Below are positions 32,233 to 40,263 of a stretch of 64,000 nucleotides of DNA, one piece after another (the stretch's first letter is position 1; the number at the start of each line of letters is the position of its first letter). Source of the stretch: Erysipelotrichaceae bacterium (GTDB lineage: Bacteria; Bacillota_I; Bacilli_A; Erysipelotrichales; Erysipelotrichaceae); assembly GCA_017473335.1 (NCBI GenBank), contig JAFULN010000026.1, positions 1-64,000 on the forward strand. Direction: 5' to 3'. Made by a program: the position numbers and the translations under genes. The notes under the pieces are model-generated. The model had not been told where the DNA came from. It worked only from the letters and a program-made list of their open reading frames with translations, and did not search any database.

Positions 32233-32289
32233 TTTTTTTGAGGTTTTGGCATTTTTTTGAGAATAACTTAAGTGAAGGGAGGAGTAGAT

Positions 32290-33264
32290 ATGGAACAGCA
32301 GTTAGAACGGTTGATTGATTATGCACTTCATCATCATGTAACTGACCTTCATTTTCAATGCAGAGAAGATTCGGTTCGGATGCAGATGAGAAAAAATGGA
32401 AGCTTGCTAGACTGTGATGATTTTGTGTGTGATTATCGTTTGTTTCGTTATTTGCAGTATCGCAGCAACATGGAGCTCTCAGCTGTAAGTACACCTCAGA
32501 CAGGCAGATTTGAGTTTTGTGTTCGTGACAAAAGACTGTCTTTACGATTTGCGGTGATTCAGAGCTTTCAGATGATCAGTGGTGTTCTTCGTATTTTAAA
32601 TGCAGAAAATCAATTAACTATGGAATCTCTTTTTCATTATCCAATGCATTACAAAATGATGAAAAATGCGCTTAAAAGAGAAAATGGATTAATTTTAGTT
32701 TCTGGTCCTACAGGTTCAGGAAAGACGACCACTCTTTATACTTGTCTAAGATCAATCAATGAACGAAGTATTTTTACTGTTGAGGATCCTATTGAAATTT
32801 ATGATGAGAACTTTGTACAGCTTCAAGTAAATGAAGCTCAAAATCTTAGTTATGAACAATCTATCAAGCAGCTGATGCGTCATGATCCAGATATTTTAAT
32901 GATTGGTGAAATACGTGATATAAAAGCTGCAAAAGGGGCAATTCAATCTGCATTGACTGGACATCTTGTTGTAGCAACCATTCATGCATCTAGCTGTGTG
33001 ATGGCGATTGAACGTATGAAAGATTTAGGAGTAAGTGAGATGTTATTAAAAGATGTTCTTTGTCTTGTGACATCTCAGCGCTTGCTTAACACTATTAGAA
33101 AGGAGAAAGCTGGTGCATATGAAATGATGGATCAAAATGATTTAGTTTACTACTTTAGACATCATACTGTACCAGAAAATTTTCATGACCTTAAGACAAA
33201 TATTCGCTGGATGGAAAAACAACGTATTGTTTCGACTTTCGAAACCGAAGACATGTTCATTTGA
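32290..33264 (+). CDS. comGA: competence ATPase ComGA (GspE family)
   Basis: 324 residues. A traffic ATPase that powers assembly of the competence pseudopilus. Walker A GPTGSGKTTT, an Asp box (DPIEIYDENF), Walker B with GEIRD, and the His box (ATIHASS). It is compact, with a shortened N-terminal domain typical of ComGA. ATG 32290 follows GGGAGGAG; the in-frame GTG (32272) precedes that site. First gene of a seven-gene operon; comGB overlaps its 3' end by about 80 bases. Confidence 0.93.
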   Translation: MEQQLERLIDYALHHHVTDLHFQCREDSVRMQMRKNGSLLDCDDFVCDYRLFRYLQYRSNMELSAVSTPQTGRFEFCVRDKRLSLRFAVIQSFQMISGVLRILNAENQLTMESLFHYPMHYKMMKNALKRENGLILVSGPTGSGKTTTLYTCLRSINERSIFTVEDPIEIYDENFVQLQVNEAQNLSYEQSIKQLMRHDPDILMIGEIRDIKAAKGAIQSALTGHLVVATIHASSCVMAIERMKDLGVSEMLLKDVLCLVTSQRLLNTIRKEKAGAYEMMDQNDLVYYFRHHTVPENFHDLKTNIRWMEKQRIVSTFETEDMFI

Positions 33265-34225
33265 AGAAACACGTTTTTTTATGATTTTGATGCAATCTGG
33301 ATACAGTTTTCAGATGTGTATGCAGTATCTGCAAACTAGAGAGAATCAAGCTGTTTTTGAACGAATGCGTTTTCATCTTCAAAATGGAGATACATATGAA
33401 AACTGGCTTCCTGATTGTTTCTATCCAAAAATTGCGAATCATTTAAAATCCTTTATGAAGTTTTTAAGGGTACAGGACGCTTTGTCTTTATCCATTCAGA
33501 TTTATCAGCAGCAGATTGATTCTTATCAGCAATTACTGAAAATGGCAGTATTTCCTATGGTAATGTTTTGTGTTTGTCTTTTATCAGTTCAGCTTTTTTG
33601 TGCATTCTGTATGCCTGTACTTATTTCAATGATGAAAGGATTTCAGGTTTCGACATTAGGTATTGAAATTGTATTTCATCTTTTAATGACTCTATCTGCA
33701 GTTCTTCTTGTATTGATGATCATTACAGGGATAGGTGTAGTTTGGTTTACACGTAAAAAGCGTATTGTTTTAGCAGCAGTCTTTCTTTATCAAATGAAAT
33801 TAGGAAAATTGATTGAAAAAGAACTGTCTTTAGATTTTGCAAGAATGTTATTTCAATGTATTCGATTAGGAATACCCACTAAAAAGGCATTAGAGATGTT
33901 AAAACAGTGTACTCATCAGCCTTTGATTGTTTTTCTATCGTGGCATGTTGAACAAGTGTTAATGAAGGGAGGGAATCTTGAAGAGGCATTGTCAATACGT
34001 TATCTTGATCCAGCGCTGCAAAGAATCATGAAAACTGCAATATTAAGTGGAAATGTTCTTGAACTATTGGAAGGTTATTTGATTGTTGCACAGCAGAAAA
34101 GAAAGAAAAATTTAGAGTTAACTGCAAAAATAATACAATCAACATCTTATGTATTAATTGCGATGATGATTGTTCTTGTATATCAGGTTTTATTTTTACC
34201 GTTATCGATGTTAGAAAGGATGTAA
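33185..34225 (+). CDS. comGB: competence membrane protein ComGB (GspF family)
   Basis: Up to 346 residues. The polytopic platform protein of the pseudopilus. Membrane segments are seen near residues 118-145 and 158-185 and at the C-terminus (SYVLIAMMIVLVYQVLFLPLSML), with the GspF repeats FFMILMQSGYSFQMCMQYL and LDFARMLFQCIRLGIP. The start is uncertain: ATG 33185 has no ribosome site and would overlap comGA by 80 bases, while TTG 33227 or a later codon would align better with other ComGBs. Confidence 0.85.
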   Translation: MTLRQIFAGWKNNVLFRLSKPKTCSFEETRFFMILMQSGYSFQMCMQYLQTRENQAVFERMRFHLQNGDTYENWLPDCFYPKIANHLKSFMKFLRVQDALSLSIQIYQQQIDSYQQLLKMAVFPMVMFCVCLLSVQLFCAFCMPVLISMMKGFQVSTLGIEIVFHLLMTLSAVLLVLMIITGIGVVWFTRKKRIVLAAVFLYQMKLGKLIEKELSLDFARMLFQCIRLGIPTKKALEMLKQCTHQPLIVFLSWHVEQVLMKGGNLEEALSIRYLDPALQRIMKTAILSGNVLELLEGYLIVAQQKRKKNLELTAKIIQSTSYVLIAMMIVLVYQVLFLPLSMLERM

Positions 34226-34227
34226 AT

Positions 34228-34524
34228 ATGAATAAAAAGGGTTTTACTTTATTGGAAATGATTCTTGTTGTAAGTGTGTTGTCAATTTTGTTTCTATTAA
34301 CTGTTCCAAGCATACAGAAAGTACTTGAAGTTGTGGATCGTAAAGGGTGTGAGGCTCTTGTAAAGGTTGTTGATGCAGCTATAGTACAGTATCGTCTTGA
34401 AGTTGGGACTACACCGACAGATGTATATGATTTGATTAGTGCAGGATATTTAGATGAATCACAGATAGAATGTACAAACGGAAAGAGCATTGTGATTACA
34501 GCAGGTGAAGCGGATGCAAGGTAA
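34228..34524 (+). CDS. comGC: competence pseudopilin ComGC
   Basis: 98 residues. A class III prepilin: short leader MNKKG, cleavage before FTLLEMILVVSVLSILFLL with Glu at +5, then a globular domain. It is the major pseudopilin, expected to bind or transfer DNA across the wall after processing by the prepilin peptidase ComC, which is not in the window. Starts 3 bases after comGB. Confidence 0.93.
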   Translation: MNKKGFTLLEMILVVSVLSILFLLTVPSIQKVLEVVDRKGCEALVKVVDAAIVQYRLEVGTTPTDVYDLISAGYLDESQIECTNGKSIVITAGEADAR

Positions 34525-34816
34525 ACAAGGATTTACGATGCTGGAACTGTTAATCTGTATGTATATAGTCTGTAGCTTGTCCGTATTGATGATTCCATGG
34601 ATTCATCGACCTGATTTTAGTGATAAATATTTTGTTTTAGAGGCTTTATCCTTACAAAGTAAAGCAATGAGTACACAAGAAGGACAAAGTTTGTGGATGG
34701 ATGGTTTTGAACTCAGCTACAATGCTTCAGGGAATATATCACAAGCACATACTTTTATCTTTGACAAAAATGAAATTGACATACAGCTTGGGTGGGGAAG
34801 ACTTGTTGAAAAATAA
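34514..34816 (+). CDS. comGD: competence pseudopilin ComGD
   Basis: 100 residues. Prepilin signal MQGKQGFTMLELLICMYIV, Glu at +5. A minor pseudopilin. ATG 34514 overlaps comGC by 11 bases; a GTG at 34505 would also be in frame but lies too near the upstream purine-rich site. Assignment to ComGD rests on operon position and the motif. Confidence 0.82.
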   Translation: MQGKQGFTMLELLICMYIVCSLSVLMIPWIHRPDFSDKYFVLEALSLQSKAMSTQEGQSLWMDGFELSYNASGNISQAHTFIFDKNEIDIQLGWGRLVEK

Positions 34817-35027
34817 GTATGGATTTTTTCTGGCAGAGGCTGTTTTATGTGCTGCATTATCTAGCGTGATGTGTCTTTGGGGTTTATCGGTTTTACAACT
34901 TGCAGTCAAAAAGGAGGAAATTATGGACCATATTGAGGAGGAAATTAATCAGTCATGGGAAGAAATCTTTATGAGTTTAAAAGAATGTTCAGCATGTTTA
35001 ATGATAGAAGAAAAGCAGGAGGAGTAA
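34803..35027 (+). CDS. comGE: minor pseudopilin ComGE-like
   Basis: 74 residues. The start is TTG 34803 or 34806, preceded by GTGGGGA and overlapping comGD by about 14 bases. The N-terminus KYGFFLAEAVLCAALSSVM is a prepilin motif with Glu at +5. The rest is short and acidic (EEINQSWEEIFM). The name comes from position and motif only. The final base overlaps the next start. Confidence 0.65.
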   Translation: MLKNKYGFFLAEAVLCAALSSVMCLWGLSVLQLAVKKEEIMDHIEEEINQSWEEIFMSLKECSACLMIEEKQEE

Positions 35028-35392
35028 TGCTTCAGCTTTTGATGGCTGTGCTTGTCATTTGTATGTTTTTTCCATTAATGTTAAGGATGACACAAAGTTT
35101 AATATCAATTCAGCGTTTCCCATCAGAAGTTCAGGATCAGATTGGTTTAGCACAGTTAAGACGTTTTTTGAACTGCTGTAAGGTACAAAGTATCTCTATA
35201 GATGAATTAATATGTGTGAATGACAAACAATGGCATTTGCGCTGTTCAGAAAAGAATTTGTTTTTATCTCCAGGTACCATTATTGTATTAGAAGGTATTG
35301 AGGAAGTATTCTTTGATCAAAGAGACAATCAGATTTGGATGTTGTATCTTAGAAATAATCAATGGAAGGAGGCCTTGATTACAAATGGTTAA
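35027..35392 (+). CDS. comGF: minor pseudopilin ComGF-like
   Basis: 121 residues from ATG 35027, just after AGGAGGAG. MLQLLMAVLVICMFFPLML is the hydrophobic N-terminus, then a ComGF-type domain (SEVQDQIGLAQLRRFL, PGTIIVLEG). The frame is open further upstream (KAGGVMLQLL), and an earlier start would make GGVMLQ look like a degenerate prepilin cleavage site with Gln at +5; I cannot decide. Overlaps the next gene by 8 bases. Confidence 0.72.
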   Translation: MLQLLMAVLVICMFFPLMLRMTQSLISIQRFPSEVQDQIGLAQLRRFLNCCKVQSISIDELICVNDKQWHLRCSEKNLFLSPGTIIVLEGIEEVFFDQRDNQIWMLYLRNNQWKEALITNG

Positions 35393-35723
35393 ACATGGTT
35401 TTATTTCTTTGCCATTTTTAATCATCTTTAGTTTTTCTATGGCACTGTGTTCTTATTTGACATATAAGACAAAAACTGAATTAGAAATTTTAGAATCTAT
35501 GAAAGAAGTGAATCAACAAATTCAAAAAGAAAGACTGATTATTGAATCAGTAAATTGTCTTATTCAGTGTGACAAGCCTAATTATCAGCTCATTTCTATA
35601 GAAGATGAACAGGCCTGGGTTGAGTGTATGGATGCATGTTGTGAAGTAAGTACATCGTTTGGAAAGATGTTTCTTTACTATGATGAACTAGAAAGAAGAA
35701 TTTATCATGTAGAAATACAGTAA
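35385..35723 (+). CDS. comGG: ComGG-like competence protein
   Basis: 112 residues. N-terminal hydrophobic segment GFISLPFLIIFSFSMALC, reminiscent of a pseudopilin but without Glu at +5, then a helical and beta part. It is the last gene of the competence operon and overlaps comGF. The name is by position; the sequence alone does not prove it. No clear terminator follows, but efp has its own promoter. Confidence 0.55.
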   Translation: MVKHGFISLPFLIIFSFSMALCSYLTYKTKTELEILESMKEVNQQIQKERLIIESVNCLIQCDKPNYQLISIEDEQAWVECMDACCEVSTSFGKMFLYYDELERRIYHVEIQ

Positions 35724-35785: not shown

Positions 35786-35816
35786 ATTCTTGGATAATAT
35801 TTTGGAGGAAAAGAAA

Positions 35817-36380
35817 ATGGCAGAAAAAATTGAATGTACAGCACTTAAACCAGGTATGTATTTCTTGGATGGAGCAGATCTTCTGAAGTGTATTTCAGCA
35901 GACCGCAACAAAACAGCTATGAGAAAGATGGTTGTTATCGTAAAGTGCCGTAATATGAGAACTGGCGCTGTAAAGGAAATGACTTTCAGTGGTGAAACAA
36001 TTGAAACAGCTTATATCGAAAAGAAGAATGTAAGCTATTCATGGAATGATGGAGAAACTTATTACTTCTATTCTGAAGATGGTAATGAATTCTCTATCCC
36101 AGCAGATCGTCTTGAAGATGAAAAACTGTATCTGGTTGATGGCCTTGAACTGTCTCTTCAGATTTATGATGATTCAGAAATTCTGGGCGTCATCCTTCCA
36201 GATAAAGTAGAAATGGAATTGGTTGAATGTGAAGAAGCTGTAAAGGGAAACACTGCTACTTCAGCTGAAAAGAATGCAGTTACTGAAACAGGTCTGAATG
36301 TACGTGTTCCAATGTTCATCAAAAATGGTGAAAGAATCATCATTTCTACTGAAACTGGCAAATATTCAAGCCGCGCTTAA
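35817..36380 (+). CDS. efp: elongation factor P with a divergent tip loop
   Basis: 187 residues, normal EF-P length. EF-P relieves ribosome stalling at proline stretches. The N-terminal KOW-like domain begins ALKPGMYF, the middle has MRTGAVKEMTF and YIEKKN, and domain III ends VKGNTATSAEKNAVTETG and the classic STETGKYSSRA. Aligned without gaps to B. subtilis EF-P, the usual K-P-G-K-G loop is K32-T33-A34-M35-R36, so the lysine normally modified (Lys32 in B. subtilis) is Met35. The start is ATG 35817 after GGAGG. Either an EF-P that works without that lysine, or one using Arg36 or Lys37. Confidence 0.9.
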   Translation: MAEKIECTALKPGMYFLDGADLLKCISADRNKTAMRKMVVIVKCRNMRTGAVKEMTFSGETIETAYIEKKNVSYSWNDGETYYFYSEDGNEFSIPADRLEDEKLYLVDGLELSLQIYDDSEILGVILPDKVEMELVECEEAVKGNTATSAEKNAVTETGLNVRVPMFIKNGERIIISTETGKYSSRA

Positions 36381-36389
36381 TCAACAAAG

Positions 36390-36417
36390 ACAGGGATGCT
36401 AAAGCATCTCTGTTTTT
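36390..36417 (+). terminator. efp terminator
   Basis: ACAGGGATGC (36390-36399) pairs with GCATCTCTGT (36404-36413, one G-U), loop TAAA, followed by TTTT. Confidence 0.88.
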
Positions 36418-36494
36418 ATGCACTAATGAAATTTGAAATAGAACTTGGGTTTCATCAGTGAGTTTGATATAATATATCTGTTTAGGAGGTTTTA

Positions 36495-37286
36495 ATGATG
36501 GAAAAACTATCAAGAACTAAAAAATATCAGGAATTGCGTGATCGCCTGCAGAATGATGCAGAATCTCAAGTTGTCAGCAAAGACCTTTCTCAGTTTCAGA
36601 ATCGCTTGAATCGTCTGGATGTCATGCATTTTGATACTGCTAGTGATACAGAAGAACATGATCCTATTCATGCAAGAAGAAACACTGCTTTTGAAGAACC
36701 TGCTGTTACAGTTCAGAATGATATGGAGAAAACAGCACAGTATACATTTAATAATGAATATCTGGATGAATATATCAATGAAGTAAAGCAGTACAATAAA
36801 AATAAAGGTCTTTTGAAAGAAGAAGACACTGCAATGAATATTCTTGAAGGATTAAAGCGTAAAGATGATGCTGTTGAAACTGAACCAGCTAAAGAAGAAA
36901 TTGAATGTGACTATACAAATGAAATGGAAGCAACAATTCCATTTGTGTTTAATCGTGAAAAAACTGTGAGTGAAGTTTCAGAAGAAGTAAAGAACTTAGT
37001 GAATGATGTACCTTCTGTTGAAGAGGTAGAAGAAAAGTCAGCAATGGCTAAGGCAGTTGAAGAAGAACTGGCTAATGAAAAGGCGCTTCGTGAACAACTG
37101 CAGCAGCACAACAAAGTGATTGAAGAAAAGATTGAAGATGTTGAAGAAGACTTGGAAGACATGGAAGAATCAATGGGAACTGCCAATAAGATTTTAAATG
37201 TTGTTCTTGTCCTTTTGATTATTGCGCTTCTAATTGTTTTAGGCGTAGTTGTTTATTGGACGTTATTGAATAGAGGTATTATCTAA
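36495..37286 (+). CDS. tail-anchored coiled-coil protein of unknown function
   Basis: 263 residues. A long acidic, partly disordered cytoplasmic region is followed by a coiled coil (about residues 180-225, VEEELANEKALREQLQQH onward) and one C-terminal membrane segment (about 235-257, LNVVLVLLIIALLIVLGVVV), leaving a short external tail. The family is not recognised. ATG 36495 or 36498 follows AGGAGGT. Its last base overlaps the cmk start, so it heads the cmk-der-gpsA operon. The topology suits a scaffold or membrane tether; no enzymatic signature is seen. Confidence 0.65.
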   Translation: MMEKLSRTKKYQELRDRLQNDAESQVVSKDLSQFQNRLNRLDVMHFDTASDTEEHDPIHARRNTAFEEPAVTVQNDMEKTAQYTFNNEYLDEYINEVKQYNKNKGLLKEEDTAMNILEGLKRKDDAVETEPAKEEIECDYTNEMEATIPFVFNREKTVSEVSEEVKNLVNDVPSVEEVEEKSAMAKAVEEELANEKALREQLQQHNKVIEEKIEDVEEDLEDMEESMGTANKILNVVLVLLIIALLIVLGVVVYWTLLNRGII

Positions 37287-37936
37287 TGGCTATAAACATA
37301 GCTTTGGATGGTCCAAGTGCAGCTGGTAAATCAACAATTGCTAAGCTTTTAGCGAAAAAGCTGAATTATGTACATCTGGACACTGGCGCAATGTATCGAT
37401 GCGTTGCCTACAAAGCAATTCACAATGGAATTGATTTAGGTGATGAAGATTTAGTCTGTGAGATGATTTTGAAGACAGAAATTGATATGAAGAGTGATGG
37501 CTCTATTTATCTTGATGGAGTTCGTATTACAAATGAAATTCGTACTGATGAAATTTCTATGGGGGCTTCAAAAGTTTCTGCTCATAAGCGTGTAAGAGAG
37601 CTTTTGGTGGCCCAGCAGCAGAAGATGGCACTTCAGAAAGGCTATATCATGGATGGGCGAGATATTGGTACTGTAGTACTTCCAGATGCAGAATTGAAGA
37701 TTTATATGACTGCTAGTGCTGTAGCGCGTGCAAAACGACGTCATTTGGAAAATCTTTCTAAAGGATTTGACAGTGATTTAAATCAGATTATTCAAGAAAT
37801 TGAACAGAGAGATTATCAGGATACACACCGTGAGCATTCTCCGCTGAAAAAAGCAGATGATGCAGTGGTTCTTGATACATCTGATTTGACAATTGATGAG
37901 GTTGTCACAAAAATTGAAGAGCTTTTGCCTCTTTAG
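37286..37936 (+). CDS. cmk: cytidylate kinase
   Basis: 216 residues. Phosphorylates CMP and dCMP. P-loop GPSAAGKSTI at the N-terminus, YVHLDTGAMYRC (CMP-binding), DGRDIGTVVLPDAELKIYM, and the lid-region REHSPLKKADDAVVLDT. Its start overlaps the preceding stop by one base, and der follows in 15 bases. Confidence 0.95.
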   Translation: MAINIALDGPSAAGKSTIAKLLAKKLNYVHLDTGAMYRCVAYKAIHNGIDLGDEDLVCEMILKTEIDMKSDGSIYLDGVRITNEIRTDEISMGASKVSAHKRVRELLVAQQQKMALQKGYIMDGRDIGTVVLPDAELKIYMTASAVARAKRRHLENLSKGFDSDLNQIIQEIEQRDYQDTHREHSPLKKADDAVVLDTSDLTIDEVVTKIEELLPL

Positions 37937-37951
37937 AAAAGGAGATGAAAC

Positions 37952-39262
37952 ATGAACGATGGAGTGATTGCGATTGTCGGCAGACCTAATGTCGGTAAAT
38001 CGACCATTTTTAATCGAATTATCCAGGAGCGTCTTTCCATCGTGGAAGACACTCCAGGAGTAACACGTGACAGAATCTATGCGAAAGGAAATTGGCTCAC
38101 TCGTGAATTCCGTGTTATTGATACGGGTGGAATTCAGATTGAAGATCAGCCATTTCAGGTTGAAATCAAAGCGCAGGTAGATATTGCGATTGAAGAAGCC
38201 GATGTGATTTTGTTTGTTGTGAATGGACGTGAAGGATGTACGAATGATGACATGTTTATTGCTCGTATGCTGCAGCGTTCTGGCAAGCCGATTTTAATGC
38301 TTGTCAATAAAATTGATGATATCAATTTAGTGGATAACATTTATGAGTTCTATCAGTTAGGATTGGATTGTGATCCGATTGCGGTATCAGGTATTCATGG
38401 AATTGGTATGGGAGATGTTTTGGACATGTGTGTTCAGATGTTTCCTGACAAAAAAGTGGATGAATATGAAGGGGCAACACGTTTTGCACTTATTGGGCGT
38501 CCAAATGTAGGGAAATCTTCCCTTGTTAATGCTATCTTAAATGAAGAACGTGTCATTGTTAGCGATATTGAAGGTACAACACGAGATGCCATTGATACAC
38601 CTTTTACTCATGATGGCAAAGATTATGTTGTGATTGATACTGCAGGTATTAGAAAACGCGGTAAAGTGTATGAGAGCGTTGAAAAGTATTCAGTTCTTCG
38701 TGCGATGAGCGCAATTGAGCGTTCTGATGTTGTTTTGTTTGTTCTGGATGGAGAAAGTGGAATTCGAGAACAGGATAAGCATGTTGCTGGCTATGCGCAT
38801 GAAGCTGGCAAGCCAATTATTATTGTTTACAACAAATGGGACACTGTTGAAAAAGATGACAAGACAATGTATGAAGTGACAGATCGTATCCGTAAGGAAT
38901 TTGTTTATCTGAGTTATGCGCCAATTATCTTTGTCTCTGCGAAAACACATCAGCGTGTTCATACTTTATTTGATAAGATTGATGAAGTTTATAACTATTC
39001 AAAACTGAGAATTGCGACTAGTGTGCTGAATGAAGTGGTGCTTGATGCTCAGATTGCTACACCAGCACCAACACATAACGGTAAACGCTGTAAAATACTG
39101 TATGCATCTCAGGTTGCATCAGCACCTCCTACATTTGTGCTGTTTGTGAATGATCCTGAACTGCTTCATTTCAGTTATCAGCGTTATATTGAAAATAAAC
39201 TTCGTGAAGCGTTTGGCTTTGATGGATCGCCAATTCGTATTCTCGCTCGTAAGAAAGATTAG
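37952..39262 (+). CDS. der: GTPase Der (EngA), 50S assembly
   Basis: 436 residues. Two GTPase domains in tandem plus a C-terminal KH-like domain, the hallmark of Der. G1 of domain 1 is [12 protein letters not shown], of domain 2 [16 protein letters not shown] and DTAG mark G3; NKID and NKWD mark G4. Der assists late 50S ribosome maturation. Starts with AAGGAGATG upstream, and gpsA follows after 8 bases. Confidence 0.97.
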
Positions 39263-39270
39263 GTGATCAA

Positions 39271-40263
39271 ATGAAAATCAGTGTACTTGGAAGCGGAAGC
39301 TGGGGATGTGCATTAGCTCAGATTCTTGTTAAAAATGGGCATGACGTGGTGTTGTGGGGGATTGATGAAACTGAAGTAAATGATATCAACCAGAATCATA
39401 TGAATTCACGTTATTTTCATGATGTAAAACTTGATTCACGCTTAAAAGCTACGATGGACATGTCTGAAGTAGCTGGCAGTGAGGCTCTTCTTCTTGCGGT
39501 TCCGTCCATTGCGATTGAAGATGTTATTCAGAAAGCAGAAAAGTATTGTGATGAACCATTCTATGTCATTAATGTTGCGAAAGGCTTTCATCCTGTAACC
39601 CACGAACGTATGAGCGTTGTCATTGAAAGAGCAGTTGATTCTCAGAAACTACGTGATGTTGTTTCTTTGATTGGACCTTCTCATGCAGAAGAGGTTGTTG
39701 TTGGATTGATGACTTGTGTTAATGCAGTCTGTGAAAATGAAGAATCCGCAAAAGTGATTCAAGAGGTTTTCTCGAATGACTATTTCCGTGTTTATAGAAA
39801 TACAGATGTCGTCGGTGCAGAAATTGGTGTTGCCTTAAAGAATGTTATGGCAATTGCTTCTGGTGTTCTTACTGGACTTGGACAGGGGGACAATGCCCGT
39901 GCAGCAATGATGACAAGAGGGCTTGCAGAAATTGCCCGTTATGGAATTGCCTTTGGCGGAAAACCTGAGACATACTTAGGGTTAGATGGAGTGGGTGATT
40001 TGATTGTTACATGTACATCCTATCATTCTCGAAATTTTACTGCAGGTCTTGCGATTGGTAAGGCAGACTGTGCAGTTGAATTTTTGAAAAACAATACAAA
40101 GACAGTTGAAGGAATTCGCTGTGCTAAAGTTGTCTATGAAGAATCAAAGCGTATGGGAATTACTATGCCGATTACTGATCAGGTATATAAAGTGCTTTAT
40201 GAAGGAAAACAGCCTTCTGTGGCAATGAATGAATTAATGAGTCGTGAATTAAAAGCTGAATAA
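39271..40263 (+). CDS. gpsA: glycerol-3-phosphate dehydrogenase [NAD(P)+]
   Basis: 330 residues. Reduces dihydroxyacetone phosphate to sn-glycerol-3-phosphate for phospholipid synthesis. N-terminal GSGSWGCALAQ, the LIGPSHAEEV stretch, catalytic Lys in VALKNVMAIASG, and LGLDGVGDLIVTCTSYHSRN. Last gene of the tail-anchored protein-cmk-der-gpsA operon, closed by a very strong terminator. Confidence 0.97.
   Translation: MKISVLGSGSWGCALAQILVKNGHDVVLWGIDETEVNDINQNHMNSRYFHDVKLDSRLKATMDMSEVAGSEALLLAVPSIAIEDVIQKAEKYCDEPFYVINVAKGFHPVTHERMSVVIERAVDSQKLRDVVSLIGPSHAEEVVVGLMTCVNAVCENEESAKVIQEVFSNDYFRVYRNTDVVGAEIGVALKNVMAIASGVLTGLGQGDNARAAMMTRGLAEIARYGIAFGGKPETYLGLDGVGDLIVTCTSYHSRNFTAGLAIGKADCAVEFLKNNTKTVEGIRCAKVVYEESKRMGITMPITDQVYKVLYEGKQPSVAMNELMSRELKAE

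Follow-up and report, generated by a model that had tools for sequence, protein, structure and literature searches.

EF-P helps ribosomes through proline runs, and in general its activity depends on a modified residue at the tip of the protein. The window, a stretch of 64,000 nucleotides from the genome of a gut-type bacterium of the Erysipelotrichaceae, carries an EF-P gene whose product has methionine at this site and has lost the Pro-Gly-Lys-Gly (PGKG) tip around it. Is this an EF-P that works without the modified lysine, a gene in decay, or a companion to a canonical copy elsewhere in the genome?

The gene is intact as read from the sequence, with an ATG at 35817 and a TAA ending at 36380, and is framed by translation and termination signals and by conserved neighbours:

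32272..35723, plus strand: comG-type competence pilus genes upstream of efp, its conserved left neighbour
35804..35809, plus strand: ribosome-binding site GGAGGA, 7 bases 5' of the efp ATG (read from sequence)
35817..36380, plus strand: efp, encoding an EF-P of 187 aa with an Asn-Lys-Thr-Ala (NKTA) type loop (profile searches, AlphaFold model, Foldseek)
36390..36418, plus strand: probable intrinsic terminator ACAGGGATGC-TAAA-GCATCTCTGT-TTTTAT, 3' of the efp stop (read from sequence)
36495..37286, plus strand: 263-aa protein downstream of efp, with no NCBIfam or Pfam match
37286..40263, plus strand: cmk, der and gpsA, the conserved right neighbours within the family

In every wide locus examined the NKTA-type efp adjoins comG and is followed either by cmk-der-gpsA or by asp23-nusB-xseA-ispA-dxs, the latter matching the B. 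subtilis efp neighbourhood. This likeness to B. subtilis argues that the NKTA copy is the resident gene, still in the place next to comG that efp had ancestrally in Bacilli. The 263-aa protein is also the right neighbour in two of the other Erysipelotrichales NKTA loci read (L242 and L245); judged by eye, it has a hydrophobic segment at its C-terminal end.

The domains PF08207, PF01132 and PF09285 (KOW-like, OB and C-terminal) follow one another in this order, all above the Pfam gathering scores. The AlphaFold2 model has a mean pLDDT of 92.9 and its Foldseek matches are EF-Ps, with TM scores of 0.84-0.88 to 1ueb, 6rk3 and 6enj (0.84 to 1ueb, 0.88 to 6enj, the ribosome-bound E. coli EF-P). Domains, model and fold thus agree with the earlier note, which had named the protein EF-P. 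Against TIGR00038 the window protein scores 160.6 bits, below the curated cut-off of 185.8, which NKTA-type relatives among the matches listed pass with about 213-240 bits; the shortfall is due to the divergence of the window copy. Because this cut-off is missed, the protein is assigned to EF-P by its domains, fold and orthology. Identity with EfpL was considered and rejected, as the protein scores 103.7 bits against a cut-off of 216 for NF003392 and 104.5 against 264 for TIGR02178, and its loop has 7 residues and lacks proline.

The residues that would act on the ribosome lie in two loops:

35910..35930, plus strand: codons of the beta3-beta4 loop, K32 T33 A34 M35 R36 K37 M38, where the canonical loop has K-P-G-K-G-A-A (alignment; bounds from the model)
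35919..35921, plus strand: codon of Met35, the site of the modified lysine (K32 in B. subtilis, K34 in E. coli; alignment and model)
36246..36254, plus strand: Gly-Asn-Thr of domain III loop I, the GDT/GNT motif (alignment)

KTAMRKM aligns with KPGKGAA of B. subtilis EF-P without gaps, and PGKG relatives read from DNA align identically. In the model, beta3 spans residues 21-31 and beta4 residues 39-46, leaving between them a loop of 7 residues with Met35 at its centre. The replacement of PGKG by TAMR, with Met in place of the modified lysine, therefore holds as first proposed. With M35 and T33 the protein falls outside both the lysine type, defined by an apex Lys and a Pro at -2, and the arginine type, defined by an apex Arg. 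In E. coli EF-P, the GDT/GNT motif of this domain III loop makes contact with the codon in the E site (PMC11611912).

The earlier note held that an EF-P working without the lysine would be a real departure, and proposed an alignment with EF-Ps of related genomes. We find that the clade shares the loop: N-K-T-A followed by Met, Arg or Gln occurs in more than 150 distinct relatives from the Erysipelotrichales and neighbouring lineages. Judging by these sequences, the NKTA loop is what this lineage normally has and no individual oddity. N31, K32, T33 and A34 are each conserved at 97-99% in 163 relatives, which excludes chance or sequencing error as the source of the loop; a frameshift is likewise rejected, as the loop is common to relatives and the alignment with a same-genus copy has just two single-residue gaps. 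An error hiding a PGKG tip, raised at the outset as a way in which the finding could fall, is ruled out on the same grounds.

Beyond the conserved core the tip varies. It begins with Met (mainly MRKM, MRQM and MAKM), with Arg (RSAM, RAAA) or, rarely, with Gln (QRQM). Arg35 without a basic residue at 36 or 37 is found in 39 of 154 distinct proteins, and Met35 or Gln35 with Arg or Lys at 36 or 37 in the other 115, with no exceptions, a count over related sequences that is not usable as a probability. At least one of positions 36 and 37 is basic in every Met35 or Gln35 protein, and the suggestion that Arg36 or Lys37 might substitute for the lysine stands as plausible. Trees calculated with the loop columns removed show several switches of the tip between Met and Arg. 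A tree of 131 rows by a quick method places all NKTA proteins and the class proteins with an xGR loop in one clade (support 96); in a more careful tree of 51 rows, moderate support (86/80) unites the NKTA proteins of the Erysipelotrichales type, the deeper order being unsettled. Loops of the S-G-R-G-Q type occur in genomes of the class that we call Spiroplasma/Mycoplasma-like from their small size and in-frame TGA codons, and other families of the class retain PGKG.

Two further loop forms were observed. Three EF-Ps of one family (f9; L194, L195 and L228) have the loop HVKSARSAA, in which PGKG has become SARS (K-S-A-R-S), apparently by a separate change. Loops of the form HVLQNK-VA or HVLQNK-TA, one residue shorter and without PGKG, are found in L208 and L209, both from genome G243, which thus has two copies of this type, and in L225 from G398.

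An efp match was found in 57 of 60 relatives searched, the NKTA-type copy being nearly universal; two of the genomes without a match, G019 and G081, also gave no YebC or ABC-F match, and their apparent lack of efp is discounted for this reason. Among 147 genomes of the family, 142 have an efp match, 86 a single one and 56 two or more, and all single-copy genomes whose loop was read are NKTA-type. A PGKG copy elsewhere in the genome accompanies the NKTA gene in about a third of relatives: of the 20 genomes in which a PGKG loop was read, 19 have both types, and the one that has PGKG alone (G044) belongs to the sister family. In the window genome (94.7% complete, 86 contigs) neither protein search nor the TIGR00038 HMM found a second efp, PGKG-type or other. 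The view of the gene as a paralogue or relic beside a canonical copy thus fails for this genome, although the arrangement that it supposed exists in those relatives. Two same-genus genomes have the NKTA efp as their only efp, and a third gave no match. A 23-bit match on contig C22 was rejected as a second efp; it is an HPr-domain protein (L032, 1489-1974, minus strand) with weak OB-like similarity. The tail of this protein resembles the EF-P OB domain at 18 bits, below the cut-off, and could reflect a chimera or chance.

The PGKG copies branch together as a clade of their own (support 100/99), and in all 20 of those read from the order (L113-L132) GAPS or GAPT replaces the GDT/GNT of domain III, which NKTA copies retain. 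They also travel with other genes. Four loci whose full length was read (L238-L241) have a FabG-like short-chain dehydrogenase (SDR) directly after the PGKG efp and, nearby, a gene of PF06838, the family of B. subtilis YnbB; by coordinates, all three lie within a few kb in 13 of 14 PGKG genomes. The dehydrogenase is present in 12 of 12 PGKG genomes at 68-100% identity and in none of 12 NKTA-only genomes, where the best match reaches at most 42%. Likewise PF06838, in a search with B. subtilis as positive control, was found in 14 of 14 PGKG genomes as against 0 of 23 NKTA-only genomes, including that of the window, where the best matches to the cassette SDR have 28-36% identity. In B. subtilis ymfI, ynbB and gsaB are required for 5-aminopentanol-EF-P (PMC5885033). 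YmfI is a reductase from the same broad family as the cassette dehydrogenase. With the YmfI model, however, this dehydrogenase reaches 153-164 bits, short of the cut-off of 238, and a YmfI-like name thus rests on linkage and the broad family. In other parts of the class, three genomes with PGKG only also lack PF06838, so that a PGKG tip need not imply a YnbB-type pathway. Within the order, the PGKG efp, the SDR and the YnbB-family gene make up a candidate EF-P modification cassette; being physically linked, its genes probably do not represent independent losses where they are missing.

Taken together, we consider it probable that the window gene is a resident, working EF-P free of lysine modification, within a clade-wide variant without P-G-K-G. 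NKTA EF-Ps at large are probably functional and independent of modification rather than broken genes. Such a protein would still enter the ribosomal E site and aid peptide bond formation at proline-containing motifs, and would do so without lysine modification. The complementary placement of basic residues suggests that NKTA loops supply charge either from position 35 or from 36/37; in the window protein, Arg36 or Lys37 may provide the charge that contacts the tRNA, and the GNT of domain III loop I would still read the E-site codon. The order would retain the lysine-dependent system only in the form of a distinct, optional cassette, which the window genome lacks. E. coli EfpL, whose loop is longer, works with an unmodified Arg (PMC11611912), a precedent for an unmodified Arg tip, and unmodified E. 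coli EF-P is partly active (PMC6544042). The same paper reports E. coli EF-P K34M as inactive, which counts against our explanation, although that substitution was made in a PGxG context.

Alternatively, the window EF-P may be losing its function on the way to disappearing, selection on it having been relaxed by a proteome with few proline runs and by other anti-stalling factors. The copy has indeed diverged: its branch measures 1.23 against 0.073 for its sister, and compared with the same-genus copy its dN is 0.35, as against 0.16 for the neighbouring cmk, 0.11 for gpsA and 0.03 for der. About 18 of its residues differ at sites conserved at >85% in relatives, mainly in the OB domain and including Y76W and M85Y, where Tyr and Met are conserved at about 100%:

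36030..36095, plus strand: rewritten OB-domain segment, residues 72-93 (V72, S75, W76, Y85, S86, G89, E91, S93), set against residues near-invariant in 163 relatives

Moreover, in a 413-kb sample of the window genome PP occurs at 0.37 of expectation and PPP not at all against 3.65 expected, and the genome has a YebC-family gene and three ABC-F matches. Yet the reading frame, ribosome-binding site and terminator are intact and the loop core is kept. The overall dN/dS of about 0.26 (with dS at 1.35, near saturation) indicates that selection still acts on the gene, and its dN of 0.44 in domain I and 0.51 in the OB domain falls to just 0.13 in domain III. Depletion of PP cannot serve as proof of a weak EF-P, being common in the class regardless of EF-P type: in samples of 100-400 kb per genome the ratio in relatives is 0.36-0.93 (0.36-0.83 with both EF-Ps, 0.45-0.93 with PGKG only), one genome with both types stands at 0.36, and the window genome lies at the low end. 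The depletion is thus only suggestive, and we regard loss of function under way as a serious rival, if an unlikely one.

Could the NKTA loop instead be activated by a novel modification of R36, K37 or K32? The near-invariance of K32, T33 and A34 is what one would expect of a recognition motif, and more than half of bacteria have no known EF-P modification enzyme (PMC6544042). However, neither the apex nor the basic residue is constant (R35, M35-R36, Q35-R36, M35-A36-K37), unlike a single modified residue; genes of the 5-aminopentanol type (PF06838, a close SDR) are absent, and no EarP match was found in 118 genomes of the order by a search that had no working positive control. We hold such a modification to be quite unlikely. 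That a canonical PGKG efp is present and was missed is highly improbable: the assembly is incomplete and fragmented and many family genomes have more than one efp match, but neither the window genome nor the two same-genus NKTA genomes have the PGKG efp, its SDR or the YnbB gene, and, as noted, single copies read within the family are NKTA-type.

How does the unmodified NKTA EF-P that we favour compare with known systems? It shares with B. subtilis Efp, which carries 5-aminopentanol on K32, the three domains, the fold, the comG-proximal position, the 7-residue loop and the domain III signature; it differs in a tip without P, G, K and G, and in a genome without a YnbB-family gene or closely related SDR. 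The arginine-type EF-P of Pseudomonas (rhamnosylated by EarP, loop NKSGRNA) also starts its loop with N-K, has no Pro at -2 and is alike at the tip to NKTAR relatives, whereas the window tip is Met and no EarP match was found, control genomes being also silent. In the quick tree the window EF-P groups with its class relatives, apart from P. aeruginosa EF-P, the outgroup rows being long branches. E. coli EfpL (YeiP; SPTARGAA, unmodified Arg) has a T-A-R-like tip, as do NKTAR relatives; two extra residues lengthen its loop, a Pro stands three positions ahead of the Arg, it lacks GDT and it co-occurs with a lysine-type EF-P, in contrast to the window EF-P with 7 residues, no Pro, a GNT and no other copy found. 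It is the Erysipelotrichales PGKG paralogues whose GAPS/GAPT resembles the GASA of EfpL. Met-tip EF-Ps, 0.77% of sequences and none with Pro32, are counted by Volkwein et al. 2019 (PMC6544042), the available parts of which give no clade, context or mechanism for them, and are mentioned again in PMC11611912. With a Met tip and no Pro at -2, as here, that set very probably includes the NKTA clade. A mostly open-access literature search found no characterisation of Met-tip EF-Ps and, with subscription papers mostly outside its reach, no joint treatment of EF-P and polyproline with Erysipelotrichia; the searchable literature appears to have no description of the NKTA clade, of the complementary placement of its residues or of the linked cassette.

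A large clade without the tip lysine and the Pro-Gly scaffold, often with a single efp, offers a natural test of the need for modification and of how the loop can be rebuilt. The cassette, whose PGKG efp, SDR and YnbB-family gene are present or absent together in the genomes tested, offers a natural comparison and candidate genes for a 5-aminopentanol-type modification outside Bacillus. A broader proposal, which we put forward tentatively and hold possible though somewhat doubtful, is that the EF-P of the Erysipelotrichales and their neighbours belongs to a self-sufficient class: its catalytic charge would have shifted by one or two residues along the loop (Met or Gln at the apex, with Arg36 or Lys37 after it), so that no modification is needed. 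The lysine-type EF-P would then persist in the order only as an optional cassette that brings its own modification enzymes and reads mRNA with an altered loop (GAPS/GAPT). If this is true, the usual roles of main and accessory EF-P would be reversed in the Erysipelotrichales.
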